Positions 5,137 to 27,631 of a stretch of 37,203 bases of DNA are shown one piece after another (position 1 is the first letter of the stretch; the number at the start of each line of letters is the position of its first letter). The notes beneath the pieces were generated by a model. The model searched no databases, was not told the origin of the DNA, and saw only the letters and a program-made list of their open reading frames with translations. Origin of the DNA: a virus; the IMG/VR virus record IMGVR_UViG_3300033571_030147, positions 1-37,203 of that record; one strand, 5' to 3'. A program made the position numbers and the translations under genes.

Positions 5137-7017
5137 TCACGTTTGCGGGCGCCATCCGCTCGTCGCGCCGGTCACGCCGAACGTTTCGCCGCGGGCCAGC
5201 GCGGGAACGAAGCTGCTTCCAGCCGCGTCGCTGGTCGAACCGCGGTGCACGCTGCTGAGCAGGCCCTTTTGCTGGTAAGAACCGAGCATTCGGGTCATCC
5301 AGTCTGGGTCGTTCGAGATGTTCGACATGCCGCGCACCATTTCAGGCTGGAAGGGCGGCGGTTCCCGGTGCGCTTCGACATTGTTAATGCCGTACTTTTG
5401 AAGCGTGCTGGCGACATTCTTGCCGATCTTCGTGCCGACCGAGTAGTGGAGCACGGGCCGCTCCAGGTAATGCCCCTGCAGGCTTTTGGGCACGCCCGTC
5501 ACGCTTCCTTGACGCGGCTGCCAAGCACGCTCGAGCATCGAGTACGGCACCACGTCGTCGGGGTTGTAATCACCGTATTCGTCGGTCATGCGAACGTGGT
5601 TGACCAGCCCGCGCGAGAGCAGTTCAATGTTACGGCGGTGAGGCGACACGCCGGAGTTCTGGAGAACCTGGCGCATGGCCTGCACAAAGTACCTGCGCCC
5701 CTCGCCGATGCCCTTGTGCCGGACGACTTCGGCCGGATTGGGCATGCCATTGGTGATCGAGTCGCCCGCCTCGACCTCTTGCCCCTTCTTGACCGTCAGC
5801 TCCTGGTCGACCGGCACGTAATGATCTTCGCCGCCGATTTGAACGTAATGGCCGCCCTGGGGCGCTTCGCGGATTTCCTGCACGAATCCGTCAAGCTGAG
5901 AATGCGCGGCGCCGCCGGGATACTTTTTCGGGACCTGGACTAGCGCGTTAATCGCCTTGAAGCCCGAGATTGAGGCCGCGCCGCCCACGCCGCCGGAGTG
6001 CTTCGAGCTGATCTGCGCCTGAGTCACCGGCTCGGAGAGGGCCTGGGCGGCGGCGATACCGACATAGTCGCCGATTGGAGGCAGCTTGCCCTTCTCGCGG
6101 TAGCCGACGTCTTTGGCGTAGACGCCGCCGTCGTCCGGGCCGCCGGTGAGCGGGCTGCGCACCAGGATGTCCTGAATGCCCATCTCCTTGATGTCTTTAA
6201 GAATCTTTGGCGTCAGGACGGTGTTGCGCTTGTACGGCCCCACCGGTCGCGCCAGAAGCGCGCCCTCGTTGTCGACGTCGTCCACGTCGGTCGGAAAGCC
6301 GCGGTCTTGCGCAGTGGCATTGCGCTCTTGATCGTCGTCATCGTCGGCCGTGACGAGCAGCCGGTGCGTCATCTGGGCGAGCTGTTTGCCGAAAAAGCCC
6401 GCGTCGGCCGTCGCCGTTTTTAGGTCCATCAACCCCTTGCGGGTGCCGAAGGCGCCCGCAAAATATTCCACGGGTCGAAGCCCCTGGCCGTAACTCCGCA
6501 TCACCGGAATCGGAATTGGGTCGTTCTTGTGGTCGACATACTGCATGTCGGCGCCGATCAGCGAATTCAGGCTGAACTTGTTGCCGACGGCAGACCCGGT
6601 TACCTGATGCGCGAGCGGGTTGTCGTTGCCGCGCGCCTCATCGTAAACGCGCTCGACAAGCTCTTTCTGCGCGCCAGCGGCCAGCTTGAGAATGGCCAGC
6701 GAGCGGGTCTTATCGTCCAGGTCGCGGTTTGCCAGAATGCCGCGGAGCTGCCGCTGCACCCGCAGTTGTACGTCGCGGGCGGCCACCGTCGGTTTGATAT
6801 CTTTCAGCCCAAACGACAGGCCGTTCGTGGTGTACGCAGCGTCGCGGCCCACGTCGTGCAGGCGCTTCATGACGTCCCGGTATTTGTCCGGGTACTTCTG
6901 CGCCAGCTCCGTGGCCAGCTTGCCCATTTCCTTTTTGGTCAGGACGCGCTCGTAGTTGCGCATGTCCTCGGGCAGCGCCTCGTTTACGAGAATTTGACCG
7001 AGCGTCGTCTTGAGCAT
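5137..7017 (-). CDS. RNA polymerase beta-prime subunit, C-terminal part (bridge helix and trigger loop)
   Basis: 626 residues matching the C-terminal half of bacterial beta-prime. It opens with LGQILVNEALPED, equivalent to the segment just after the catalytic barrel. The bridge helix is at about 178-215 (GLRPVEYFAGAFGTRKGLMD). The trigger loop begins near 318 (GIAAAQALSEPVTQAQ) and keeps the catalytic His as H340 in KHSGG, although the Met-Arg of the bacterial TMRTFH motif are Ile-Ser. The downstream GDSITNGMPNPAEVVRHKG block also matches. The four zinc-binding Cys of bacterial beta-prime are replaced (SPLTGGPDDGGVYAKD against SPLTCxxxxGVCAKC), and an Asp-rich run sits where the first Cys would be. 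It must combine with the beta/beta-prime fusion encoded at 7999-12414 to form a working enzyme. Start 7017 follows the upstream stop by one base. Confidence 0.95.
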   Translation of the reverse strand: MLKTTLGQILVNEALPEDMRNYERVLTKKEMGKLATELAQKYPDKYRDVMKRLHDVGRDAAYTTNGLSFGLKDIKPTVAARDVQLRVQRQLRGILANRDLDDKTRSLAILKLAAGAQKELVERVYDEARGNDNPLAHQVTGSAVGNKFSLNSLIGADMQYVDHKNDPIPIPVMRSYGQGLRPVEYFAGAFGTRKGLMDLKTATADAGFFGKQLAQMTHRLLVTADDDDDQERNATAQDRGFPTDVDDVDNEGALLARPVGPYKRNTVLTPKILKDIKEMGIQDILVRSPLTGGPDDGGVYAKDVGYREKGKLPPIGDYVGIAAAQALSEPVTQAQISSKHSGGVGGAASISGFKAINALVQVPKKYPGGAAHSQLDGFVQEIREAPQGGHYVQIGGEDHYVPVDQELTVKKGQEVEAGDSITNGMPNPAEVVRHKGIGEGRRYFVQAMRQVLQNSGVSPHRRNIELLSRGLVNHVRMTDEYGDYNPDDVVPYSMLERAWQPRQGSVTGVPKSLQGHYLERPVLHYSVGTKIGKNVASTLQKYGINNVEAHREPPPFQPEMVRGMSNISNDPDWMTRMLGSYQQKGLLSSVHRGSTSDAAGSSFVPALARGETFGVTGATSGWRPQT

Positions 7018-7018
7018 G

Positions 7019-7261
7019 TTACGGCGTCCAGATCACGTTCTTGTTCAGCGGTTTAGGCGCGACCTCGTTAACGGAAACCACTTTGTCGATGCCGAGCTGG
7101 CGTATAAGCGCGTGAAAATCTGCATCCCGCGCATCAGCAAAAATGATCGAGTCGGTGAGCTGAGACGCCACGAAGAGCGGGTTTCCCAGGTCGTCCTCGA
7201 TCACCACGCTGTCCGCGGGTGCGACGGTCGGCTGCAACTTGCTCTGAAATCTAACGCGCAC
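7019..7261 (-). CDS. Small hypothetical protein between the polymerase genes
   Basis: 80 residues. The start overlaps the end of the upstream Pro/Met-rich gene by 11 bases and the stop lies one base before the beta-prime C-terminal start. The composition is ordinary and probably globular (VVIEDDLGNPLFVASQL, FHALIRQLGIDKVVSVNEV). I do not recognise it. Its position inside the split polymerase operon suggests a polymerase-associated role, but nothing in the sequence proves this. Confidence 0.7.
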   Translation of the reverse strand: MRVRFQSKLQPTVAPADSVVIEDDLGNPLFVASQLTDSIIFADARDADFHALIRQLGIDKVVSVNEVAPKPLNKNVIWTP

Positions 7262-7985
7262 GCCCCATGTTCCTCAGCAGGATGCCCGCCGCCGCCGCCA
7301 GATTCTGGATCGACGTCGGCTCGTCAGGTTGTTCTTCAGCAAACTTCGCCAACGGCTTATCCCACCAGTTCGCCTGCTTGGCAGCGGCGGGGTCCATCGG
7401 AGGCTGGCTGGGATCCATCGGGCCGCCCGGGGGCACCGGGCCGCCTGGAGGCATCGGACCACCAGCGGCGTTAGGGTCCTGGGGCGGCGGAGCCATCGGT
7501 CCGCCGGGCAGCGCGGTCTCGGCTGGAGGCGCGCCGGTCGTGCCGGGCGGCAGGACGAGCGACTCGGGGGGAACCTGAACGCCCATGGCGTTCATGATCG
7601 CCGTGAGCTGCTGCTGCATGTTGTAAAGCCGGTAGTCGAGCATCTGCATCATCTGCTCGGGCTTGAGCTTCTGCTGGCCAGGTGCGCCGCCAGTCGGCGT
7701 GGCCGGTGGCATCGGAGCCGGGGCCGCCGCGGCAGGGGGCGCCGCAGCGGTGGCCGCGCCAGTCGGGTCAGCGCCCGGAGGCGGCGCGGCGCCCATGGCA
7801 GCAGTCGCTGGGTCAACCGGTTGGGCGGCGCCCTGAACGCCAAGCATGGAAGGATCGGGCGGTTCGCCGCCCATTGGGGGCGCGCCGCCTGCCGCCATCA
7901 TCGCCGCGTCGGATGGCACCACCGCCGACTTTTCGAGGGCATGGCGCGCCATCTTCAGCAGTTCGGGATTGACCGTGAAACTCAT
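7251..7985 (-). CDS. Pro/Ala/Met-rich low-complexity protein in the polymerase operon
   Basis: I chose the ATG at 7985 because GGAGG lies 5 bases upstream and the start is 13 bases from the end of the beta/beta-prime gene. The 244-residue product has a short helical N-terminus (MSFTVNPELLKMARHALEK). About 130 residues of Pro, Ala, Gly and Met follow, then a helical Gln/Met stretch (LNYRLYNMQQQLTAIM-like, near 125-145), another Pro/Gly tract, and a globular tail (WWDKPLAKFAEEQPDEP). It appears largely disordered, like a scaffold, linker or virion-assembly protein. The function is unknown. Confidence 0.8.
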   Translation of the reverse strand: MSFTVNPELLKMARHALEKSAVVPSDAAMMAAGGAPPMGGEPPDPSMLGVQGAAQPVDPATAAMGAAPPPGADPTGAATAAAPPAAAAPAPMPPATPTGGAPGQQKLKPEQMMQMLDYRLYNMQQQLTAIMNAMGVQVPPESLVLPPGTTGAPPAETALPGGPMAPPPQDPNAAGGPMPPGGPVPPGGPMDPSQPPMDPAAAKQANWWDKPLAKFAEEQPDEPTSIQNLAAAAGILLRNMGRAR

Positions 7986-7998
7986 GGAAACCTCCGTG

Positions 7999-10900
7999 TT
8001 AACTCTCGACGATATGCACCGGGGTGTCGACGTCAATCTCCCCGCGGCGATAGGCGTTCATGGCGTCCTGCCGTGACTTGTATACCCTCGGCTTCTGTTT
8101 CTTGTCGACCCGGCTCGAAGCCAGGTAAACCCCGGTCTGATAGTCCCTGTTCGGAACAAAGTGGGCCTTGAAGCTTGCCGTCGAAAAGAGATTTTTGCTT
8201 GGAAGCATTTTTTCGACGGCTTCCTTGGCGGCGTCCTCGGTGCTGGGAACGTGATACTGCATCGCGTCCCCGTCAAAGTCGGCGCCAAAACCCTTGGTAA
8301 TGACCGGGTTAACCTCCATAACCTTGTTCTTGGTGAGCTTCGGATAAAACGCCATCATACCGTATCGATGGAGCACCGGCGCACGGTTAATGACGATCGG
8401 CCGGGACGACATCTGCGTGTTCAGCTCGTCGTACGCCGCCTTGTTGCGGTTTTCGACGGCGTCCAGCGCATTCATCCGGGGCATTCCGCGGCGCACCAGG
8501 CCCCGCACCACGAACGGCTTGTAGACCTCCCAGGCCTTGTCCTCGGGAAGCGCGACCTGGTCCATGTCGAGGTCCGGGTTCGGCGTAATAACTGCCCGCC
8601 CCACCAAGTCGACCGTGGTCGAGAGAAGCTTGCGCTGCACGGTGCCGTACTTGGGCGAACTGCCGAAGACGTGCTGCAAAAAGCCCTTCACACGGCGTTC
8701 CTGATTCTTGGGCTGCGTCGGATCGCCCAACCCGGAGACGGCCTTCATGGCGTCGTACAGGCCCAGCCGTTCGTCGCTGTATTCGCTCAGGGCGCCGGAG
8801 GCTTCCTTGAGCGTGTCGTTCGCGTCGAGCAGTTCCTTGTAGAGGTAATTCGCGTCGGCCACGAGCGGTAACTTTTTGGCGCCCATCGTGGAGACGGGCC
8901 GAAAAATCGGCGGGAGCACGCCGACCTTGCTCATCATCCAGTCCTTGGGATGGACGCCGGTCGATTCAGCGTTCTTGAGGTATCCCAGCTTCCGCACGGC
9001 GGCGTCGCGCAAAGTCTTGCGTCCCGATTTGATATCTAACCTGGCCTGCTCGATCGCCTTGGGCAGGTTGATCCGCCCCAGGGCGCCCTGGATGGCCTCC
9101 GGGCCGGTCTTGTCGAACAGCTGCACCTGCCCGGCGAGCACTCCGCGGAACTCTTTCTCGGTAAGCCCGAGCACCCGGCGGATTGGCTCCTCCATGACCG
9201 GGTTGGGCATCGGTTCGTGAAGCGTGATCTTGCTCCAGCGGTTGCCGCCGTGGCCGCCGGTGAGCGTTTCATCGAACAGGCCGCCCTTGATCGGCTTGAG
9301 CCGCCCCTTCCAGTCGACTGTCTCGGAGTTGGTGACCTCGCGGGCCCCGGCCAGCTCATCGATGTCGCGGTCGGTCACCGCCATGATGTGCGTCTTTGTC
9401 CCTTCGCGCACGGTGTTAATTCCAGCGCCCTTGAGCTGGTTAACAAACTTCTCGTAGACGTGCGGCACCTTGGGCAGCGGCGGAGTGTAGCCCGCCATGA
9501 ACTGCGACCAGTACTCGGGGTTCGCCTGCCCGCGGACCATCTTGGCGTCACGAATGACTTTGCCCGCGCCGTGGGAGAGCAGCGCGCCCAGGTCCAGCAT
9601 GCCGACGCGCTTGGCGCCCTCGCTGCCGCCCTTGGCCGGAGTGCCCTCCGCCGTGTAGCTGCTCATCGCGCGGCCTTGGCCCTTGGACTCCGCGGTGTGA
9701 TGGAGCTTCATGAAGAACCGGTTGCCGGTCAGCACGCTTTTGATCTTACGACCGGTTTCCGGATCCGTGACGTCCTCAGTATCGGAGAGGCCGTGCTTCC
9801 CAAGCTCGTTCTGGGCAAACTCTACGAGGTCCTGCGCGCTGTCGAAGTCTTTGAGTTTGAACGGCTGCCCGGTCTTCGCCGCAATCTTGCCGAGCGCCGC
9901 TTCGACGACCTGCGCCGGGTTCACGCGGGAGATCAGACCCAGCGGCGAAACAAGCACCTCGTACGGACTGCCGTCCTTGTCTTGTGGCATGCGGTGGTCT
10001 GGAACAATGTCGGCTACCACGCCCTTGTCGCCGTAGCGCCCCGTAAGTTTGTCGCCCACCTGCATTTCGGCCTGGCTCTTCACAACGACCGAGACGCCCT
10101 TGTCGGTGTGCTCAACGTCGGTAACCACGCCCGGCGAGTGGTGCTCCCAAGTCAGCGTCTCGTTCATGAAGTTTCCCGCCCGGCCGCGATGCACCTTGCC
10201 GTAGGTTGTCTCCTTGGCCTTGGCCTGGAGGATCAGCGGGTCGCCGTAGTTCACGACCGTGCCCTTCTTGATCGCGCCCTTGTCGTCGAAGTTCTCGAGC
10301 TGCTTCTTGTCGTACTCGCCCGGAAACAGCGCAACGAACGCCTTCTTCCCGACGTGGCTGTTCTCGGTCCACTCAGCCTCGTGCTGGTACATGTGCTCGC
10401 TGGTGAGCTTCTTGGCCGCCGATTCCGAGATCACCACGGCGTCTTCGTAGTTTTTCCCCTGGTACGGCAAATAGGCGACACGTAAGTTCTTGCCCATCGC
10501 CGCTGTGCCGCTAGGGTCCGTGAAGTTCGAGTGGGCCAGAAGCTGCCCCGGCTTAATCACGTCGCCTGGCTTCACGACCGGCGTCTGGTGCCAGAATGTC
10601 TTCCGGTTAAAGGGCATGTCGTTGTACAGGTCGATCTCGTGCTTCTTGCCCTCACGATCGCGCAGCACGATCATGCCCGGCTCGGCCGAAACGACCTGGC
10701 CGTGAAACTGGGCCTTCACGGCGCCGAGCTTCTCGCCCATCTCGTCCTCGTGGGACACGCCGTCCTTGTCGACGACGGCCGACTGCACGAGCGGCGCCTC
10801 GGCTCCCGAGAGCGGCAGCGCCTGGGTAAACATGCGGCTGGCCATCACCGCGCGCTGGCCCTTCATCATGCTCTTCAGCGGAACCATGTTCGAAAGCGCG

Positions 10901-12414
10901 GAGAACGTGCTGTCCATGTTGGGCAGCGAGAACTGGACTTCCTCACGCGGCACGTACTGCATCTTGCCGCCAACGAGTGCCGCGACCATCGGCATGTCGG
11001 TCTTTTCCTCGCCCGGAAAAGCGAGCGGCGTCTCGGCCAGCTCGCCTGGCGTCTTCATCTCTGTCTCGCCGGTCTGTATGTTCACGACCGGCGTGTAGAT
11101 CTTGCCGTCGGTGCCCTTCATGGCGCCGCGGGCAAAACGCATGTCGACGCCCACCTTGCCAGACTCTGGCGTGCGCAGGAAGTCCACAAAGCCCAGGTGG
11201 CTGGGCTGCACAGAGCGCGACTCTTGGGGCACGGCGTCAAGCGAGCCGATGCCGCCCTCGCCCATGCGAGTCACGCGGCCCTGGTGGTCGAAAATCTCGG
11301 CCGGGTTGATTTCCTCGAGCGAACTGCCCAACCCAGAGCCAATCAGCGCGGCCTGGATGGCCTTGTTGAACACGCCGGTCGGGACGTGGTCAAGGTTCTT
11401 CTTAGCCGTCGCCTTCCAGAGCAACTTGCGCAGCGCCTGCTTGTCTTTGGTGAACCGTTCGGAGATCAGATCCTCGGGCCCAACGATGCTTTGATACGCC
11501 ATTGCGTCACGGTCATCGGGGTCGGCCTCTTTGCGATTGAGGGCGATGAGCTTTTTCGTAATGTCGAGAATTGCTTCGGGGGTAAGGTTCTTGTATTCCT
11601 TGCCAAGAGTGCGCCGCGTAACGTCGGGGTCGAGTTCCATGCGGGCAAACTCGTCCGCAATTGCCTTTTGCTTGGCAGCTGCGTCGATGCCGGGAGTCTG
11701 CCGGTAGACCAAACGCTGGTAGAGCTTGTCGAGCGTTCCCGCATCGCCCTTCTCCATGTTGACGGCGGTGATCTCGTTGCCCCAAGCGGCGCGGATGTCG
11801 GAGTCCTTGGCGCCCATCGCCTTGAGCAGCGGCATCAGCGGAATCTTCGCCTGGCCGATGTTGATGTTCATCACGCCGGTCTTCGGGTCGAGGAAGTACC
11901 GGTGCATGCGCCCCTTGCCGGGCAGCACGTTGACGTGGGCCTCCAGCTCGCCGTTGTCCTTCTCGCGGGTGTAGACGCCCGCCTTGAGCCGCATCTGGTG
12001 GGCCAGGGTGTACTCGACACCCCGGTTCACGAACGTGCCAGAGTCGGTGAGATACGGCACGTGGGCGATCGTCTGCTGCCGGGTGGCGATCGGCGCACCG
12101 GTGGTGTTGTCGATCAGGTTCCAGGTGCCCGTGAGCCGCCGATGGAGCGAGTTGCCCGTGAGCACGGCCTTCTTTTGATCGGCCTTGGTGAACCTTTCCG
12201 GCCCGGTGTATGCGACGTTCGCAAGCTGCAGCGTGTAGAGGTCGTTCTTGATCGGCTCGAGAGAAGAAGCGCTCTGCAGCGCCCGATCAAAGATGTTGGT
12301 GCGCAGCGCGCCGATGTCACCGAACGAGCGCGTCTGCAGCGGCGCTTGTGGTTGCGGCGTCGGCGTGATGGGCGCAGGCGGACCGGAGAGGATCGAGTCT
12401 GGCATTGCGCTCAC
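7999..12414 (-). CDS. RNA polymerase beta subunit fused to N-terminal half of beta-prime
   Basis: 1471 residues. The beta part spans about 1-975. GTFVNRGVEYTLAHQ (126-140) matches the bacterial fork-region block. AYLPYQGKNYEDAVVISES (647-665) and VGDKLTGRYGDKGVV (786-800) carry the two active-site lysines (K789, K797). KLHHTAESKGQGR (903-915) is the beta clamp motif. The beta-prime part runs from about 1015: GLFDETLTGG, LPPIFRPV (1167-1174), INRAPVLHRYG (1342-1352), and the Mg-binding catalytic loop GADFDGDAM (1377-1385; D1379, D1381, D1383). The chain ends about 85 residues later, and beta-prime continues in the gene at 5137-7017. I see no Cys in the whole chain, so the N-terminal zinc ribbon of beta-prime is missing. 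The first ~30 residues are Pro-rich. GTG start 12414 overlaps the upstream stop as GTGA; ATG 12405 is an alternative. Confidence 0.96.
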   Translation of the reverse strand: MSAMPDSILSGPPAPITPTPQPQAPLQTRSFGDIGALRTNIFDRALQSASSLEPIKNDLYTLQLANVAYTGPERFTKADQKKAVLTGNSLHRRLTGTWNLIDNTTGAPIATRQQTIAHVPYLTDSGTFVNRGVEYTLAHQMRLKAGVYTREKDNGELEAHVNVLPGKGRMHRYFLDPKTGVMNINIGQAKIPLMPLLKAMGAKDSDIRAAWGNEITAVNMEKGDAGTLDKLYQRLVYRQTPGIDAAAKQKAIADEFARMELDPDVTRRTLGKEYKNLTPEAILDITKKLIALNRKEADPDDRDAMAYQSIVGPEDLISERFTKDKQALRKLLWKATAKKNLDHVPTGVFNKAIQAALIGSGLGSSLEEINPAEIFDHQGRVTRMGEGGIGSLDAVPQESRSVQPSHLGFVDFLRTPESGKVGVDMRFARGAMKGTDGKIYTPVVNIQTGETEMKTPGELAETPLAFPGEEKTDMPMVAALVGGKMQYVPREEVQFSLPNMDSTFSALSNMVPLKSMMKGQRAVMASRMFTQALPLSGAEAPLVQSAVVDKDGVSHEDEMGEKLGAVKAQFHGQVVSAEPGMIVLRDREGKKHEIDLYNDMPFNRKTFWHQTPVVKPGDVIKPGQLLAHSNFTDPSGTAAMGKNLRVAYLPYQGKNYEDAVVISESAAKKLTSEHMYQHEAEWTENSHVGKKAFVALFPGEYDKKQLENFDDKGAIKKGTVVNYGDPLILQAKAKETTYGKVHRGRAGNFMNETLTWEHHSPGVVTDVEHTDKGVSVVVKSQAEMQVGDKLTGRYGDKGVVADIVPDHRMPQDKDGSPYEVLVSPLGLISRVNPAQVVEAALGKIAAKTGQPFKLKDFDSAQDLVEFAQNELGKHGLSDTEDVTDPETGRKIKSVLTGNRFFMKLHHTAESKGQGRAMSSYTAEGTPAKGGSEGAKRVGMLDLGALLSHGAGKVIRDAKMVRGQANPEYWSQFMAGYTPPLPKVPHVYEKFVNQLKGAGINTVREGTKTHIMAVTDRDIDELAGAREVTNSETVDWKGRLKPIKGGLFDETLTGGHGGNRWSKITLHEPMPNPVMEEPIRRVLGLTEKEFRGVLAGQVQLFDKTGPEAIQGALGRINLPKAIEQARLDIKSGRKTLRDAAVRKLGYLKNAESTGVHPKDWMMSKVGVLPPIFRPVSTMGAKKLPLVADANYLYKELLDANDTLKEASGALSEYSDERLGLYDAMKAVSGLGDPTQPKNQERRVKGFLQHVFGSSPKYGTVQRKLLSTTVDLVGRAVITPNPDLDMDQVALPEDKAWEVYKPFVVRGLVRRGMPRMNALDAVENRNKAAYDELNTQMSSRPIVINRAPVLHRYGMMAFYPKLTKNKVMEVNPVITKGFGADFDGDAMQYHVPSTEDAAKEAVEKMLPSKNLFSTASFKAHFVPNRDYQTGVYLASSRVDKKQKPRVYKSRQDAMNAYRRGEIDVDTPVHIVES

Positions 12415-15043: not shown

Positions 15044-16069
15044 TTAAATGTTGCCCAGCGCGCCCCAGTTGCGCAGCGGTTTGCGCTTCCAGCCGTTAAA
15101 GCTCGAGAAGGCGATCGCGTCGCGGTTCTTCAGGTCGCTCCAGCGCGCCCAGAAGGCGCCGATGGGGATCAGGAGGTTCGTATCCATGATCTTGCGACTT
15201 CCGTCATTCCAATTTCCCCAACTGTTTTGGACGCAAATCAGGGGCTCTTTGTAAACCTCGATAATCTCGGGGCGCTCATCAACCGCAATGTAGGCCATCG
15301 CGTGCGCCCAGCCCTTTGCCGTGCGTCGCGACACGCCATTTGCGTCACGCTCCGACGAGAACGACTCGCCGCCGCAGGAGCTAATTCCGTAACCGTTCGC
15401 GAGCATGTCGCGAACCTCTTCGTAACTCTCGAGCACCGTGGTCGAGCGGATCAGGTGCTGCTGACCGATCTTGAGCCAGGACTCCGGCGGCGTGCGCGAA
15501 CCGTAAAGCCCGGCGTTGCGCGAAGAGTACGTTTCGAAGTCGACGTTAATCTCGGGATACGCCCTGCGAATCCAGAGACCCGATTCCTTCATGACGACCC
15601 GAGCGGCGTCCGAGCAGAACCAGCCGTCCCCGCCATGACGGCGCCAGTTGTAAATCGCCTCGGTGCTGAGCACGCCGTTCAGTCGGGCCTTGTCGGAGAT
15701 CTCCGGCGCGCCTTCGACGTTACCAGTCTCCTCGTCGGCCAGTCCGCTGGTAATGTCGGTGCACATCGTGACCAGCCCGGCGTTGCGGGTCGACCACGAA
15801 ACGCAGTCGCCGCGTCCCTGGGCGCCACCCGGGAGGCAGTCCGGGTAGAGCGACAGAACGTCCAGGAACGGGGCGCTGAGCTTTCCCTTGCCGGTTTCCT
15901 GAAGACCGTAGGCCGCGCAGGCCATCGCGCCTTCAGGAAGGCCGCCTGCCTCCGCAATGGCGGCCTTGAGCATGTCCGTATGCTCAGGGTCGCACATCGC
16001 GCCGACGAAACCCTCTTCGTAGGCCTTCTGTACGTCGAAAACCGATTCAAAGAAAACTTCGCCGTCCAT
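15044..16069 (-). CDS. Papain-like cysteine protease (C1-type)
   Basis: 341 residues, ATG at 16069. All parts of a papain-type active site are visible in the right order: oxyanion Gln and nucleophile in QGRGDCVSW (Q84, C89), catalytic His in WAHAMAY (H256) and Asn in VQNSWGNW (N282). The C-terminal ~30 residues resemble the usual closing strands. I see no signal peptide and no long inhibitory propeptide: about 80 residues precede the Cys, mostly helical. Papain-fold enzymes cleave peptide bonds, and in phages could mature virion proteins or attack host envelope protein. The matrixin protease is two genes upstream in the same run. The catalytic fold is well supported; the substrate is unknown. 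Confidence 0.9.
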   Translation of the reverse strand: MDGEVFFESVFDVQKAYEEGFVGAMCDPEHTDMLKAAIAEAGGLPEGAMACAAYGLQETGKGKLSAPFLDVLSLYPDCLPGGAQGRGDCVSWSTRNAGLVTMCTDITSGLADEETGNVEGAPEISDKARLNGVLSTEAIYNWRRHGGDGWFCSDAARVVMKESGLWIRRAYPEINVDFETYSSRNAGLYGSRTPPESWLKIGQQHLIRSTTVLESYEEVRDMLANGYGISSCGGESFSSERDANGVSRRTAKGWAHAMAYIAVDERPEIIEVYKEPLICVQNSWGNWNDGSRKIMDTNLLIPIGAFWARWSDLKNRDAIAFSSFNGWKRKPLRNWGALGNI

Positions 16070-16090: not shown

Positions 16091-16585
16091 TCAGGCGTTG
16101 TCCGACGGAGTCTCAGGTTCTTCGCCCTCGTCCTCCTCGACCTCAACCTCTTCCTCCTCGGCCACGAGCGTCACACCGAACGCGCCGGGCTGCGCCGGGG
16201 GCAGCGTGTCGCTGGCCACGAACTCAAGCACCGCGGGCTCCGAGCGGTTGCCCGCGTCGTCGACGTCGACGAGCGTGAGAAGGACCTTGTCGTTCTGCTT
16301 CGCCCGGATTTCACCGAGATCCGTGGAATCAGCCGAGAAGACCACGAATTCGTCCGGCGAGCCGACGCCATTCACGGCGACGACCAGCTGGCGCTCCACC
16401 ACGTCCTTGTCGACCACCGGGCCGACGGAAACCTTGTACACAAGCACATCTGCCATAACATCTCTCCCGATTTGACTGGTTTTCAACTCTACCGGCGTTG
16501 GAACAGTTTTAACGTCTGTTAACCACCACGCGATGATTAACGCCAACGCGTAAACAACAAGTATGGTGACAAACGCTGTGTTCAT
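16091..16585 (-). CDS. Membrane-anchored beta-domain protein with acidic tail and possible internal start
   Basis: 164 residues from ATG 16585 (AGGGG shortly upstream). Residues 5-22 form a membrane segment (FVTILVVYALALIIAWWL). A beta-rich domain follows (VDDAGNRSEPAVLEF; DTLPPAQPGAFGVTLV), resembling a single fibronectin-III or Ig-like module, then an acidic Glu-rich tail. A second in-frame ATG at 16456 has its own strong GGGAGA 6 bases upstream and would give a 121-residue soluble form lacking the membrane segment. Ig-like modules are common on phage virions. Which start is used, or both, cannot be told from sequence. Confidence 0.78.
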   Translation of the reverse strand: MNTAFVTILVVYALALIIAWWLTDVKTVPTPVELKTSQIGRDVMADVLVYKVSVGPVVDKDVVERQLVVAVNGVGSPDEFVVFSADSTDLGEIRAKQNDKVLLTLVDVDDAGNRSEPAVLEFVASDTLPPAQPGAFGVTLVAEEEEVEVEEDEGEEPETPSDNA

Positions 16586-16594
16586 CGGGGCCCC

Positions 16595-17098
16595 TTAACG
16601 GGCCGAATCCGCGATCAGCGTACAGGCCTCGATCAACTTGGCGCGCACCGCGTCGTCGACCGACTGCACGTCCTTGGGGTCGCGCTTTCCTTCGGGATCC
16701 AGCTCGCGCATCTTCTTGTCAAAGACCGCCTCGATGGCGACGTCGAGTCCGGGGTACTTGCCCCGCATCGAGTCGTCCACGGCGGCCTTGAGCGTGTTCG
16801 CCTGCCACAGCGCCGCCTGCTCCGTCGTCTTGATGAGCCCCGTCTTGCTGTCGCGCTGCAAGACCGTCGCCATGGCCGAGTAAATGCCTCGGATGCGCCC
16901 CTTGTCCGCGGGCGACGCGCTGGCGAGCAGCTCCGCGGTCTTGGCGTCCTTGACCACCGGCTCCGGCACCACGGGCGTGACCGGGTTCACCGGCGCCACG
17001 GGCGTCACGGGGCCGCTGGGCAGCTTGATAGAGATGCCGTTGGGAAACAGCATGGCAACGGCGAGCAGGATCCCGGCAGGCCAAATGAGCTTCTTCAT
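16595..17098 (-). CDS. Exported or membrane-anchored hypothetical protein, 167 aa
   Basis: I chose the ATG at 17098, with GGGGTGA upstream. It opens with MKKLIWPAGILLAVAMLFPNG, a classic signal sequence or N-terminal anchor. A Pro/Val tract follows (about 24-52), with repeated V-x-P-V-x-P, then a helical domain of about 110 residues (ASPADKGRIRGIYSAMATVL, VDDAVRAKLIEACTLIADSA). The Pro/Val linker plus helical periplasmic domain would suit an envelope-spanning protein, possibly lysis related. No family is recognised. Confidence 0.78.
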   Translation of the reverse strand: MKKLIWPAGILLAVAMLFPNGISIKLPSGPVTPVAPVNPVTPVVPEPVVKDAKTAELLASASPADKGRIRGIYSAMATVLQRDSKTGLIKTTEQAALWQANTLKAAVDDSMRGKYPGLDVAIEAVFDKKMRELDPEGKRDPKDVQSVDDAVRAKLIEACTLIADSAR

Positions 17099-17103
17099 GA
17101 TAT

Positions 17104-17409
17104 TCACCCCGCGTGCGGATGCTTGTGGTCGATCAGGATCTTGAGCAGGAGCGAACAGGCCTCGACACCCTCGGCGCAACCCTCGGCCTCGAAGCGGTCG
17201 CGCATCGCAGCGACGTCGAGCAGGTCGTCAACGAGCAGGTCGCCCGTGGGGACGTCCGGGGCGCCTGGCGTGACCGGCGCGGCGGGGTTTACCACCGGCT
17301 CGGGAAGCTTGGGCAGGCGGGCCTTGACCCAGCCATAGATATCTTTGCCGTAGGCCGCGAGGACCACACCGGCAAACAGAAGCAGGGCGAGGAGCTGAAA
17401 CGTGGTCAT
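17104..17409 (-). CDS. Small N-terminally anchored membrane protein
   Basis: 101 residues, ATG at 17409, preceded by GGAGGTACC. Residues 4-19 (FQLLALLLFAGVVLAA) are a membrane segment. A Pro/Val-rich linker (about 33-55) and a helical C-terminal part with two Cys (EAEGCAEGVEACSLLLKIL) follow. It shares its layout (anchor, Pro/Val linker, helical domain) with the next gene downstream, so the two may be partners or related. An ATAGATATCTTT palindrome variant lies over codons 22-25. The function is unknown. Confidence 0.75.
   Translation of the reverse strand: MTTFQLLALLLFAGVVLAAYGKDIYGWVKARLPKLPEPVVNPAAPVTPGAPDVPTGDLLVDDLLDVAAMRDRFEAEGCAEGVEACSLLLKILIDHKHPHAG
17335..17346. repeat. ATAGATATCTTT, one-mismatch dispersed palindrome
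   Basis: Within the small anchored-protein gene (KDIYG codons). One base differs from the exact palindrome; the core AGATATCT is intact. Confidence 0.6.
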
Positions 17410-17458: not shown

Positions 17459-18268
17459 TCAAGTTTTTGGGACGAGGACGTAAGGCTTGCCGTTGATGAT
17501 GATCGTGCCGCCCAGCTCGATCGACGCGTCCTTGAGCTTGGAGTACGGCACCTTGCGCTTGCCGTACAGGTCCTGGATCTCACGGATGTCGCCTTCCTGG
17601 GGCTCGGTGACGTTCGGGTCGTAGTAGGGCGCCATCAGGTTGCCGTTGGCCAGGTGGGGCAGGCCCAGGGCGTGCCCCAGCTCGTGGCACATCACGGCGA
17701 CGGCCATGTTAAAGCTCCAGGCCTCCGCCTCGTCGTACATCTGGTCGAGCTGGATGTTCTCGTGAACGCCGCAGGGCAGCTCACTCCAGGCCAGTGTTCC
17801 GCCGCGGGCGTCCAGGCCGCTCTTCTTGCCCTTGCCCGAACGCGCCAGGATGTTGGCTTTTTTCGGATCCTCCACGTACTCCGGCTCAATGTTGCAAACA
17901 CGAGCCCACTGACTGAAAGCGATGTCGAACGCCTGCTTGGCCTGCTCGGCGTTGATGCCTGGCAGCACAAGCTTGGGGTGGTAGGTGATCGCCTTGTGCG
18001 GCCACTTGCACTCCGTGTCGCCCGCCGAAAAGTTGAAGTCGGGCAGCCCGCAGCGGCGCCGTTCAAGTACGTGCGCCGTGGTTTCGTCGACGCGGCCATC
18101 CGGATCCAGGCCGTGAAAACGCTGGTACTCGCGGATGGCGCGCGTCAGCTCTGCGCCTTTGATCTGCCGAACCTTGGCCCAGGTCTTTGAGCCAAAGTAT
18201 CCGAACGCAAAAAGCTTGCGCAGGATTTCTCCGGTCGGCAGAACGTGATTTGATGGCGTCCTTGCCAT
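17459..18268 (-). CDS. Matrixin (metzincin) metalloprotease with peptidoglycan-binding domain and cysteine switch
   Basis: 269 residues, ATG at 18268. Domain order is that of a matrix metalloprotease precursor. A PG_binding_1-type helical domain lies at about 30-70 (LTRAIREYQRFHGLDPDGRV). The cysteine-switch peptide RRCGLPD (C73) follows; in the eukaryotic family this Cys occupies the active-site zinc until activation. The catalytic domain carries the zinc motif HELGHALGLPH (H195, H199, H205; catalytic E196) and the Met-turn Met in LMAPYY (M212). DLYG near 233-236 matches the usual end of the catalytic domain. No signal peptide is seen. It could act at lysis, on virion proteins, or on envelope proteins; the peptidoglycan-binding domain favours an envelope target (inference). 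Confidence 0.93.
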   Translation of the reverse strand: MARTPSNHVLPTGEILRKLFAFGYFGSKTWAKVRQIKGAELTRAIREYQRFHGLDPDGRVDETTAHVLERRRCGLPDFNFSAGDTECKWPHKAITYHPKLVLPGINAEQAKQAFDIAFSQWARVCNIEPEYVEDPKKANILARSGKGKKSGLDARGGTLAWSELPCGVHENIQLDQMYDEAEAWSFNMAVAVMCHELGHALGLPHLANGNLMAPYYDPNVTEPQEGDIREIQDLYGKRKVPYSKLKDASIELGGTIIINGKPYVLVPKT

Positions 18269-18297: not shown

Positions 18298-18711
18298 TTA
18301 TTCGCCGGGCGGCTTATACCTGTCTCCCAGCCACAGCAACTCGTCGAGCGCCTCGTCGTCGGCGCTGTCGCTGAGGTCGTAAACAGCCTCCAGCAGTGGA
18401 TTCTCTGATTGTAACAAGTCAGGCGGGCAATGGTCTTGCCACAGCCGGTTCAACTTGCGCTGCAGCCGCACAGTCTGAATGGGACCCAGGTTTCGCAGGT
18501 CGCGCATGTCGAGGCGCACGTCGCTGGCGGTGCGCTTCTCACGGCAGTGGATCACGATCTGGACGATGATCGAGATGACCGAGATCACCAGGAGCGGACT
18601 GAACTCGTAGCCCTGCGGAGAGCGAAACGCGATTTCATCCTGAAGTCGGTTGCGCAGCTTCTTCAGTGCCGGGGAGTTCTCGATCCGCTCCTGGAGATCA
18701 TCGGGAGTCAT
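18298..18711 (-). CDS. Small single-span membrane protein
   Basis: 137 residues. I chose the ATG at 18711 because AAGGA is upstream and it starts one base after the previous stop. One strong membrane segment lies at about 48-66 (EFSPLLVISVISIIVQIVIH), flanked by an N-terminal charged helix and a long C-terminal charged region ending in an acidic stretch (DSADDEALDELLWLGD). The family is not recognised. It is one of several small membrane proteins here that could form a lysis or envelope module. Confidence 0.75.
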   Translation of the reverse strand: MTPDDLQERIENSPALKKLRNRLQDEIAFRSPQGYEFSPLLVISVISIIVQIVIHCREKRTASDVRLDMRDLRNLGPIQTVRLQRKLNRLWQDHCPPDLLQSENPLLEAVYDLSDSADDEALDELLWLGDRYKPPGE

Positions 18712-18712
18712 G

Positions 18713-19081
18713 TCATTCCTTCTCGGCGCGAATGCGCTCGACAGCAATGGCTTCCATGTAACGGTACCGGGCGTCGATCATGGCTTCCTTCACGGCCACG
18801 CGGGCCGAGATGTACTTCCAGACGATCGCCGCGTTGACGATGATCACCTGCGCAGCGCCGAGCAGCGCCGCAAGGCTCTTGTTGATCGTCTCGGCGTCGC
18901 TGCCGCTGATCCAACCCAGCACCACGCCCACCGCGACTAGGTTGGTGATGGCCGAAACGACCATCGTCCAAAACTCGGGGGTGAACCAATCATTCGAGCC
19001 GGACGGCGCCACTTCATCAGCGGCTTCTCCCAGCTCACGCAACTCAGCACGAATCGTCGAAATCGGCTTCTTAGTCGCCAT
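18713..19081 (-). CDS. Small two-span membrane protein, holin-like
   Basis: 122 residues. I chose the ATG at 19081 because AGGAGA lies 8 bases upstream. Two hydrophobic segments are visible at about 40-57 (MVVSAITNLVAVGVVLGW) and about 75-92 (AALLGAAQVIIVNAAIVW), with a charged N-terminus and a basic/acidic C-terminus (AVERIRAEKE). Size, two spans and charged tail fit many phage holins, which permeabilise the inner membrane at lysis. The assignment is by architecture only. The matrixin two genes downstream could be the effector it releases. Confidence 0.75.
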   Translation of the reverse strand: MATKKPISTIRAELRELGEAADEVAPSGSNDWFTPEFWTMVVSAITNLVAVGVVLGWISGSDAETINKSLAALLGAAQVIIVNAAIVWKYISARVAVKEAMIDARYRYMEAIAVERIRAEKE

Positions 19082-26626: not shown

Positions 26627-27631
26627 TCACAGGATTTTGGCGGCTACCAGGCACCCGCGGGCTACCGCGTGCAGCGGATCCTTGGCGTGTCGTACTTCCT
26701 TCAGCGCCAGCGGAAAGCCGTTCTCCGCGAGCTTTTCGTGAAACCGCGGCACAAAACCGTTCGCCTGGCTGGTTCCGCCTGCGATAACAACCGGCAGCGG
26801 ATTCTTGAACTTGGGAAGCAGCCTGTGCCCAGTCATAGCGGCAGCGAGCTGCTTGGTCGTGTAGTCGATAAGTCGCTCATAGTAGCTCGAAACGGCCGCC
26901 AGGATCGGGTTCTCGTTGGGCTGGCCGATCGTGAACTCCCCGTGCTCCTTCTCGGCCTGAACAACCGAGTCGGGCTCACCGGTGGCCACGGCGGTCATCC
27001 GGTCGATCCAGTCGCCGCTTTTGGTGGTGCTGAACATGACCGTGGGCTCGCCGTTGAGCATCACGCAGCAGTTCACCATCCCGGCGCCGCAAGACAAAGC
27101 CACGCCGGTGTAGTCGTCGTTTTCGAGCTCCGAGTAGCACAAGGCCTCGGCTTCGTTGATCGCCCGGGCCTCGTAGCCGCACTCGGCGAGGATGGTTTTG
27201 ACAACGTCCTCGTGGTAGCCGACGTCGAAATCCTCGTCCTCCTGGTCCACCGGCTGGGCGGGAATGCAAAACACCAGCTTCTCGCCCGGCTCGCTGGCCT
27301 GGCCCGCGACTTCCTTCAGGATGTAGGCCAGGATCCGCTTGGCGTCCTTCTCCTTGGCGGAGACCACGCCGCGGTGCATGGGTCGTTTGGCCGAGTCGTT
27401 GCGCTCGACGGCCTTCTCGATGGCGTCCTGACCGAGCAGGATAAACGTCCCGTCGGCGTCCTTGACGAACACCCGCCCGGCGAGGCCCTTCTCAATCATC
27501 TTCAGCGCCACGGGACTCGAGGGCTTGATCGTGTAGAACGCGTCCCGAAAATCCTTGTAAACCACCGCGCCGTCAGCGGCGTCGCTGGCCAGGACCACGA
27601 AAGAAGTACCGACGTCGAGCCCCTTGGCCAT
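26627..27631 (-). CDS. Actin/Hsp70-superfamily ATPase (MreB- or ParM-like)
   Basis: 334 residues, ATG at 27631. The three nucleotide-binding signatures of the actin fold are visible: phosphate-1 GLDVGTS (4-10), phosphate-2 ALSCGAGMVNCCVM (near 177-190) and the adenosine loop VVIAGGTSQANGF (near 286-298). Polymerising relatives segregate DNA or organise the cell interior. Phage actins and tubulins can centre or move phage DNA. It is clearly GC-rich, unlike parts of the flanking glycan genes. The upstream gene encodes a small membrane-anchored protein that could be its partner. Whether it forms filaments is unknown. Confidence 0.85.
   Translation of the reverse strand: MAKGLDVGTSFVVLASDAADGAVVYKDFRDAFYTIKPSSPVALKMIEKGLAGRVFVKDADGTFILLGQDAIEKAVERNDSAKRPMHRGVVSAKEKDAKRILAYILKEVAGQASEPGEKLVFCIPAQPVDQEDEDFDVGYHEDVVKTILAECGYEARAINEAEALCYSELENDDYTGVALSCGAGMVNCCVMLNGEPTVMFSTTKSGDWIDRMTAVATGEPDSVVQAEKEHGEFTIGQPNENPILAAVSSYYERLIDYTTKQLAAAMTGHRLLPKFKNPLPVVIAGGTSQANGFVPRFHEKLAENGFPLALKEVRHAKDPLHAVARGCLVAAKIL

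Follow-up and report, generated by a model that had tools for sequence, protein, structure and literature searches.

Cysteine-switch matrixins have been studied as animal tissue enzymes, and insect viruses (iridovirus, nudivirus, granulovirus) encode matrixins of the M10 fold that serve animal hosts. Among bacteria, cysteine switches have been published in other metzincins (PMC6949598). Karilysin of Tannerella forsythia, a characterised matrixin, has a propeptide of 14 residues in which the switch residue is an aspartate instead of a cysteine (PMC6949598). In Listeria, the metzincin pair Mtz-Tim is of phage origin, is often found downstream of the holin-lysin genes in prophages and increases sensitivity to phage lysis (PMC8235301); the term "cysteine switch" is absent from that paper. 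A literature search, with subscription journals mostly outside its reach, returned no paper on cysteine-switch matrixins in phages.

We analyzed a virus record of 37,203 bases (the whole stretch is called the window below) that bears a pro-matrixin gene. The gene lies on the minus strand, with its ATG at 18268 and its stop at 17459-17461; the plus strand at 17459-18268 encodes no such protein. An earlier sequence-only reading of the gene gave no strand. The gene and its parts are as follows.

17459-18268, minus strand: pro-matrixin gene; 269 aa, leaderless, without a hydrophobic N-terminal segment by hydropathy
18071-18220, minus strand: prodomain helices, residues 17-66; PF01471 PG_binding_1, E=3.4e-9; aligns to the MMP prodomain
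18038-18058, minus strand: cysteine switch RRCGLPD, residues 71-77, with C73 at 18050-18052
18008-18010, minus strand: C87, candidate disulfide partner of C166, suggested by co-distribution
17771-17773, minus strand: C166, candidate disulfide partner of C87, suggested by co-distribution
17561-18007, minus strand: matrixin catalytic domain, residues 88-236; PF00413, E=1.6e-18
17654-17686, minus strand: zinc-binding HELGHALGLPH, residues 195-205; E196 is the putative general base by homology
17627-17641, minus strand: Met-turn NLMAP, residues 210-214; M212 is conserved
17468-17512, minus strand: C-terminal hairpin GGTIIINGKPYVLVP, residues 253-267, conserved in the lineage

Judged by its motifs, the 269-aa ORF is a complete pro-matrixin, with prodomain, cysteine switch, HELGHALGLPH and Met-turn. 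The sequence-only reading had already named the switch, the zinc-binding motif and the Met-turn, and all three are where the feature list places them; its numbering of C73 and E196 was likewise correct. The Pfam matrixin model PF00413 was matched over its full length (1-159 of 159) with 67.5 bits, against a cut-off of 24 bits. Thus, an HExxHxxGxxH motif, a Met-turn, a full-length catalytic domain and a predicted matrixin fold place the protein in M10. An RCGxPD switch lies between prodomain and catalytic domain, and the prodomain adopts the zymogen arrangement in the predicted model, as in a cysteine-switch zymogen. Hydropathy predicted neither a signal peptide nor a membrane segment in the protein.

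The phage protein shares prodomain, RCGxPD, HExxHxxGxxH, Met-turn and zymogen fold with the vertebrate pro-MMPs (MMP-1, -3, -9 and -10; PDB 1su3, 1slm, 8k5v and 9csx), at about 25-28% identity. In a phmmer search of the PDB, pro-MMP-1 (1su3) aligned in one piece to residues 39-243, switch over switch, with E=1.6e-17, a similarity far beyond chance. A profile search extended the pro-MMP homology to profile positions 18-254 (E=7e-53), and sequence, profile and fold searches alike found human pro-MMPs across both domains. Unlike the vertebrate enzymes, the phage matrixin has no hemopexin domain and carries the candidate disulfide C87-C166. Furthermore, in the phmmer alignment with 1su3, other residues stand where MMPs have the histidines of their structural zinc site. 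We therefore rejected the label of MMP in the strict vertebrate sense, since these zinc ligands and the signal peptide are both missing.

An AlphaFold model built from 42 close sequences reached a pLDDT of 70.8; with distant relatives added (57 sequences), the pLDDT rose to 88.6 and the pTM was 0.86. The prodomain of this model contains helices at 12-21, 30-33, 38-51 and 62-68, and residues 81-90 have a mean pLDDT of 74. The strands of the C-terminal hairpin were predicted at 255-258 and 261-264 with low confidence; all other parts of the protein are assigned. Foldseek matched the model to MMPs with E values down to 1.3e-16, and the best 19 PDB folds were pro-MMP entries throughout, with TMt of 0.79-0.85 except for 1su3, whose TMt is only 0.45 because the full-length structure has an extra domain. 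A whole-model match was also obtained with A0A6J5RTD2, an uncharacterised metagenomic phage protein (TMq 0.73, 17% identity). The predicted model contains no metal, and we infer that C73 may ligate the catalytic zinc. We regard the zymogen reading as strong.

The sequence-only reading had named a peptidoglycan-binding domain, here the PF01471 stretch, and suggested that together with it the protease could serve lysis or entry. Both phmmer and profile alignments match this stretch with the MMP propeptide, and PF01471 also scores the MMP prodomain itself, so one feature had been counted twice and a second, wall-targeting module is not supported. As an ordinary MMP prodomain, the stretch gives no separate evidence for wall targeting or peptidoglycan binding. 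Pfam found only M10 and PF01471 above cut-off in the protein, and no recognised peptidoglycan hydrolase catalytic domain; a PHROG endolysin match had E=0.094 and covered residues 15-71 only.

Switch-bearing matrixins had been considered best known from animals and plants, a view that the bacterial pro-MMPs with PRCGxPD-type switches do not bear out. Pro-matrixins with a PF01471-like prodomain, an M10 domain and no obvious leader occur in Paenibacillus sonchi, P. amylolyticus, Streptomyces globosus, Arthrobacter castelli and a Chlorobiaceae MAG, with PRCG/DRCG switches (RCGLPD, RCGQPD, RCGVPD, RCGVAD and RCGFPD). They are 26-30% identical to the phage matrixin but are cellular and stand outside the phage gene cassette described below. 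The Paenibacillus and Chlorobiaceae proteins have long C-terminal regions, and that of P. sonchi retains the MMP-type His-rich loop, in both respects unlike the phage enzyme. Karilysin has the M10 catalytic domain in common with it (profile E about 4e-44), and Listeria Mtz-Tim differs from it by a signal peptide and a TIMP-like lipoprotein partner (PMC8235301). When the enzymes were placed in a metzincin tree, as had been proposed, to weigh a possible eukaryotic origin, the phage group did stand apart from the bacterial matrixins and human MMPs, although support for the separation was weak (58/99).

In order to evaluate conservation, we relied on searches of viral contigs with several seeds. 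The proposed search of metagenomic phages was productive: the matrixin itself recovered 58 loci with 60-100% identity on contigs of up to 205 kb. A seed from the Met-turn region gave further loci, in which the switch was retained in 6/6 new full-length matches that cover it, and a seed from the neighbouring papain-like gene led to a matrixin with RCGLPDF in 55/55 loci at ≥62% identity. Conservation of the switch as a seed artefact was rejected, since the switch is found again with seeds that leave it out. C73 is invariant in 42/42 sequences of alignment A2, and H195, E196, H199 and H205 are invariant in alignment A9 (57 sequences); M212 is invariant in A2 and nearly so in A9. The dN/dS of the gene is about 0.06-0.09, indicating strong purifying selection. 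A host contaminant or a pseudogene, either of which would have undone the earlier reading, was rejected on the strength of the 55 loci reached through the neighbouring gene, the conserved cassette and the dN/dS. These results support a genuine gene for a latent-type matrixin, its cysteine switch intact, that belongs to the core of a tailed-phage lineage; the members of this lineage are large, uncultured phages of ∼200 kb. Relatives of the matrixin were absent from 50,697 phage records, where a lax limit yielded only short, chance-level pieces, and no cellular copy emerged when genome contigs were scanned with the phage family as seed. Host assignment by plasmid match gave no match.

Scans that made no use of the switch also reached distant phage members. 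Their switches read PRFCNHPD (L245), PRICALPD (L297), PRFCAYPD (L298), PRCGHPDF (L314) and PRCGCPDH (L418). The cysteine is kept without a helical prodomain in L195 (LPFCGISG) and L309 (RFCALPE), and in L335, where the helical prodomain is gone, YFCGDRP follows a predicted membrane anchor; such retention argues that the cysteine is functional. The switch cysteine is absent from L337. For other viral metzincins, CGx[PA][DE] did not occur among the matches listed (∼fifty sampled). C87 and C166 are both present in 41 sequences and both absent in 96; in P0002, C87 is present and another cysteine lies at a slightly displaced position, as judged by eye. From this co-distribution a C87-C166 disulfide is probable, the independent events being few. 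In smaller phages (L195, L245, L297, L298, L309 and L335), the next gene after M10 encodes a CXXCH (haem-c type) protein. One such companion, in L195, matches Planctomycete cytochrome C (PSCyt1), a hint that the hosts may be planctomycetes. An M10 gene followed by a haem-c type gene is also found on a contig of a bacterial MAG (L160, 795-3167) that may represent a prophage. In another phage, a HEIGHALGLPH metzincin motif lies within a long tape-measure-like protein (L338, 1-3126; L339, 4467-8660).

The matrixin gene is embedded in a cassette of small membrane or secreted proteins and a papain-like protease.

18713-19081, minus strand: protein with two predicted membrane segments by hydropathy, holin-like by size and topology only; in 48/48 divergent loci
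18298-18711, minus strand: protein with one predicted membrane segment by hydropathy; conserved locus
17104-17409, minus strand: small protein with an N-terminal hydrophobic segment by hydropathy (anchored or secreted); conserved locus
16595-17098, minus strand: small protein with an N-terminal hydrophobic segment by hydropathy (anchored or secreted); conserved locus
16091-16585, minus strand: protein with an N-terminal hydrophobic segment by hydropathy and an acidic tail; conserved locus
15044-16069, minus strand: papain-like protease by motif (Q84, C89, H256, NSWG), with C89 and H256 invariant

In divergent loci the order is two-segment protein, one-segment protein, matrixin, two or three N-hydrophobic proteins and papain-like protease, towards a fused RNA polymerase. 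The membrane-protein and papain-like genes are kept in 37-48 of 48 divergent loci, some of which stop before the farther genes. The two-segment protein has no Pfam or PHROG match. The papain-like protein has no Pfam, PHROG or PDB match, and its relatives occupy at least 582 viral-contig stretches and are absent from 50,697 phage and 72,556 plasmid records. A syntenic relative of 192,194 bp (L414) contains the cassette and has an M10 gene nowhere in its record. The cassette can thus dispense with the matrixin, which is either an addition fixed in its lineage or a loss in L414.

Elsewhere in the window, a fused beta-beta' RNA polymerase and a separate beta' C-terminal protein are encoded at 5137-12405 (minus); the fused polymerase shares 32% identity with its counterparts in Salmonella phage Arash and Vibrio phages D69, D148 and D181. 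An actin homologue at 26627-27631 (minus), present in 47/48 divergent loci, is scored by the model of Volactin (PF25216, E=1.1e-62), a family whose name comes from haloarchaea. A matrixin-bearing relative of 203,910 bp has a tmRNA gene (L071, 4302-4661, minus; tag GAPLALAA) adjoining Lys and Thr tRNAs, and encodes collagen-repeat and trypsin-like (GDSGG) proteins (L070, 5435-6571, minus; L074, 8050-8811, minus).

We then considered conventional lysis enzymes in 11 related records (153,669-205,188 bp, mostly near 200 kb). SLT, Phage_lysozyme, Amidase_2, Amidase_3 and M15_4 had no match in any of them, and M15_3 was negative in 3 of the 11. M23 gave weak matches only, under the cut-off and about 12 kb from the matrixin, a distance that points to the RNA-polymerase C-terminal gene; they were rejected as peptidoglycan hydrolases. 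In the 203,910-bp genome, no endolysin family was among the matches listed (Pfam, predicted proteins of ≥100 aa), with 7 families beyond those listed. The lack of recognised peptidoglycan hydrolases suggests that lysis in this lineage is unconventional, although a diverged one could have been overlooked by the Pfam searches.

A plausible account, which we hold as just short of probable, is that a latent M10 zymogen is released late, digests an envelope or surface protein of the host and aids the release of progeny. We infer its latency, activation, timing, place and substrate as follows. The zinc endopeptidase would be produced in the infected cell in latent form, without a signal peptide. The prodomain would cover the cleft, with the C73 thiol as fourth ligand of a zinc held by H195, H199 and H205, an arrangement proposed to keep the enzyme from doing harm in the cytoplasm. 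An opening of the membrane late in infection, for which the adjoining membrane proteins are candidates, would let the matrixin exit. Removal of the prodomain by the matrixin itself, the papain-like neighbour or a host protease would then free the enzyme; alternatively, oxidation of C73 might activate it. The freed matrixin would digest its protein target and thereby help progeny release. The membrane-protein cassette and the lack of a recognised peptidoglycan hydrolase are compatible with a lysis role, which remains a tentative guess from gene context. Against it stand L414, with its cassette and no M10 gene, and the holin-like label, which reflects topology only.

Other roles were weighed as well. 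A virion-borne enzyme, packaged latent and activated as it touches or crosses the envelope, could cut surface or periplasmic proteins for DNA entry. Latency fits a packaged enzyme, the RNA polymerase is encoded downstream of the matrixin gene, which shares its strand with a head-tail block that follows within some tens of kilobases, and in L418 the M10 gene directly follows a gene of a structural-looking block, as judged by eye. The neighbours in the lineage, however, are small membrane proteins and not tail genes, and the matrixin has no tail domain or fusion, its sole unassigned part being the C-terminal hairpin; we consider an entry role unlikely. A protease that works after lysis, on surface proteins, on biofilm matrix or on the debris of neighbouring cells, would suit the typically extracellular place of matrixins, a candidate disulfide expected to form outside the cytoplasm, and the secreted-looking haem-c type proteins that accompany the M10 gene in the smaller phages. 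The lineage enzyme lacks a signal peptide, though, and such a role seems quite improbable.

The lack of a recognised peptidoglycan hydrolase in the 11 related records, in each of which the matrixin is the sole PG_binding_1 match, could also point to an endolysin proper that binds peptidoglycan through its PF01471 stretch and cuts peptidoglycan peptides with its M10 domain. That stretch aligns to MMP prodomains, however; matrixins are protein endopeptidases, and we know of none that cuts peptidoglycan. The gene is also missing from one 192-kb relative, and the papain-like neighbour is just as good a candidate, so that this role appears very unlikely. We are equally doubtful of an intracellular protease whose C73 senses redox state and whose targets are proteins of the host or the phage, for example structural ones such as the collagen-repeat protein. 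It would agree with the leaderless matrixin and with the collagen-repeat and trypsin-like proteins of the 203,910-bp genome, but phage fibres commonly contain collagen-like repeats, the matrixin and collagen-repeat genes show no link, and the candidate disulfide favours an oxidising place.

Returning to the late-released zymogen, its most far-reaching form, that a thiol-latched metalloprotease replaces or precedes a conventional peptidoglycan hydrolase by digesting envelope protein, as a timed, protease-based lysis system with its own chemical safety catch, strikes us as distinctly improbable. If the matrixin does act at lysis, envelope proteolysis would join the known means of phage release. 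Independently of its role, a phage family that keeps the cysteine despite loss of the helical prodomain provides a natural series for defining the minimum prodomain of a cysteine switch.
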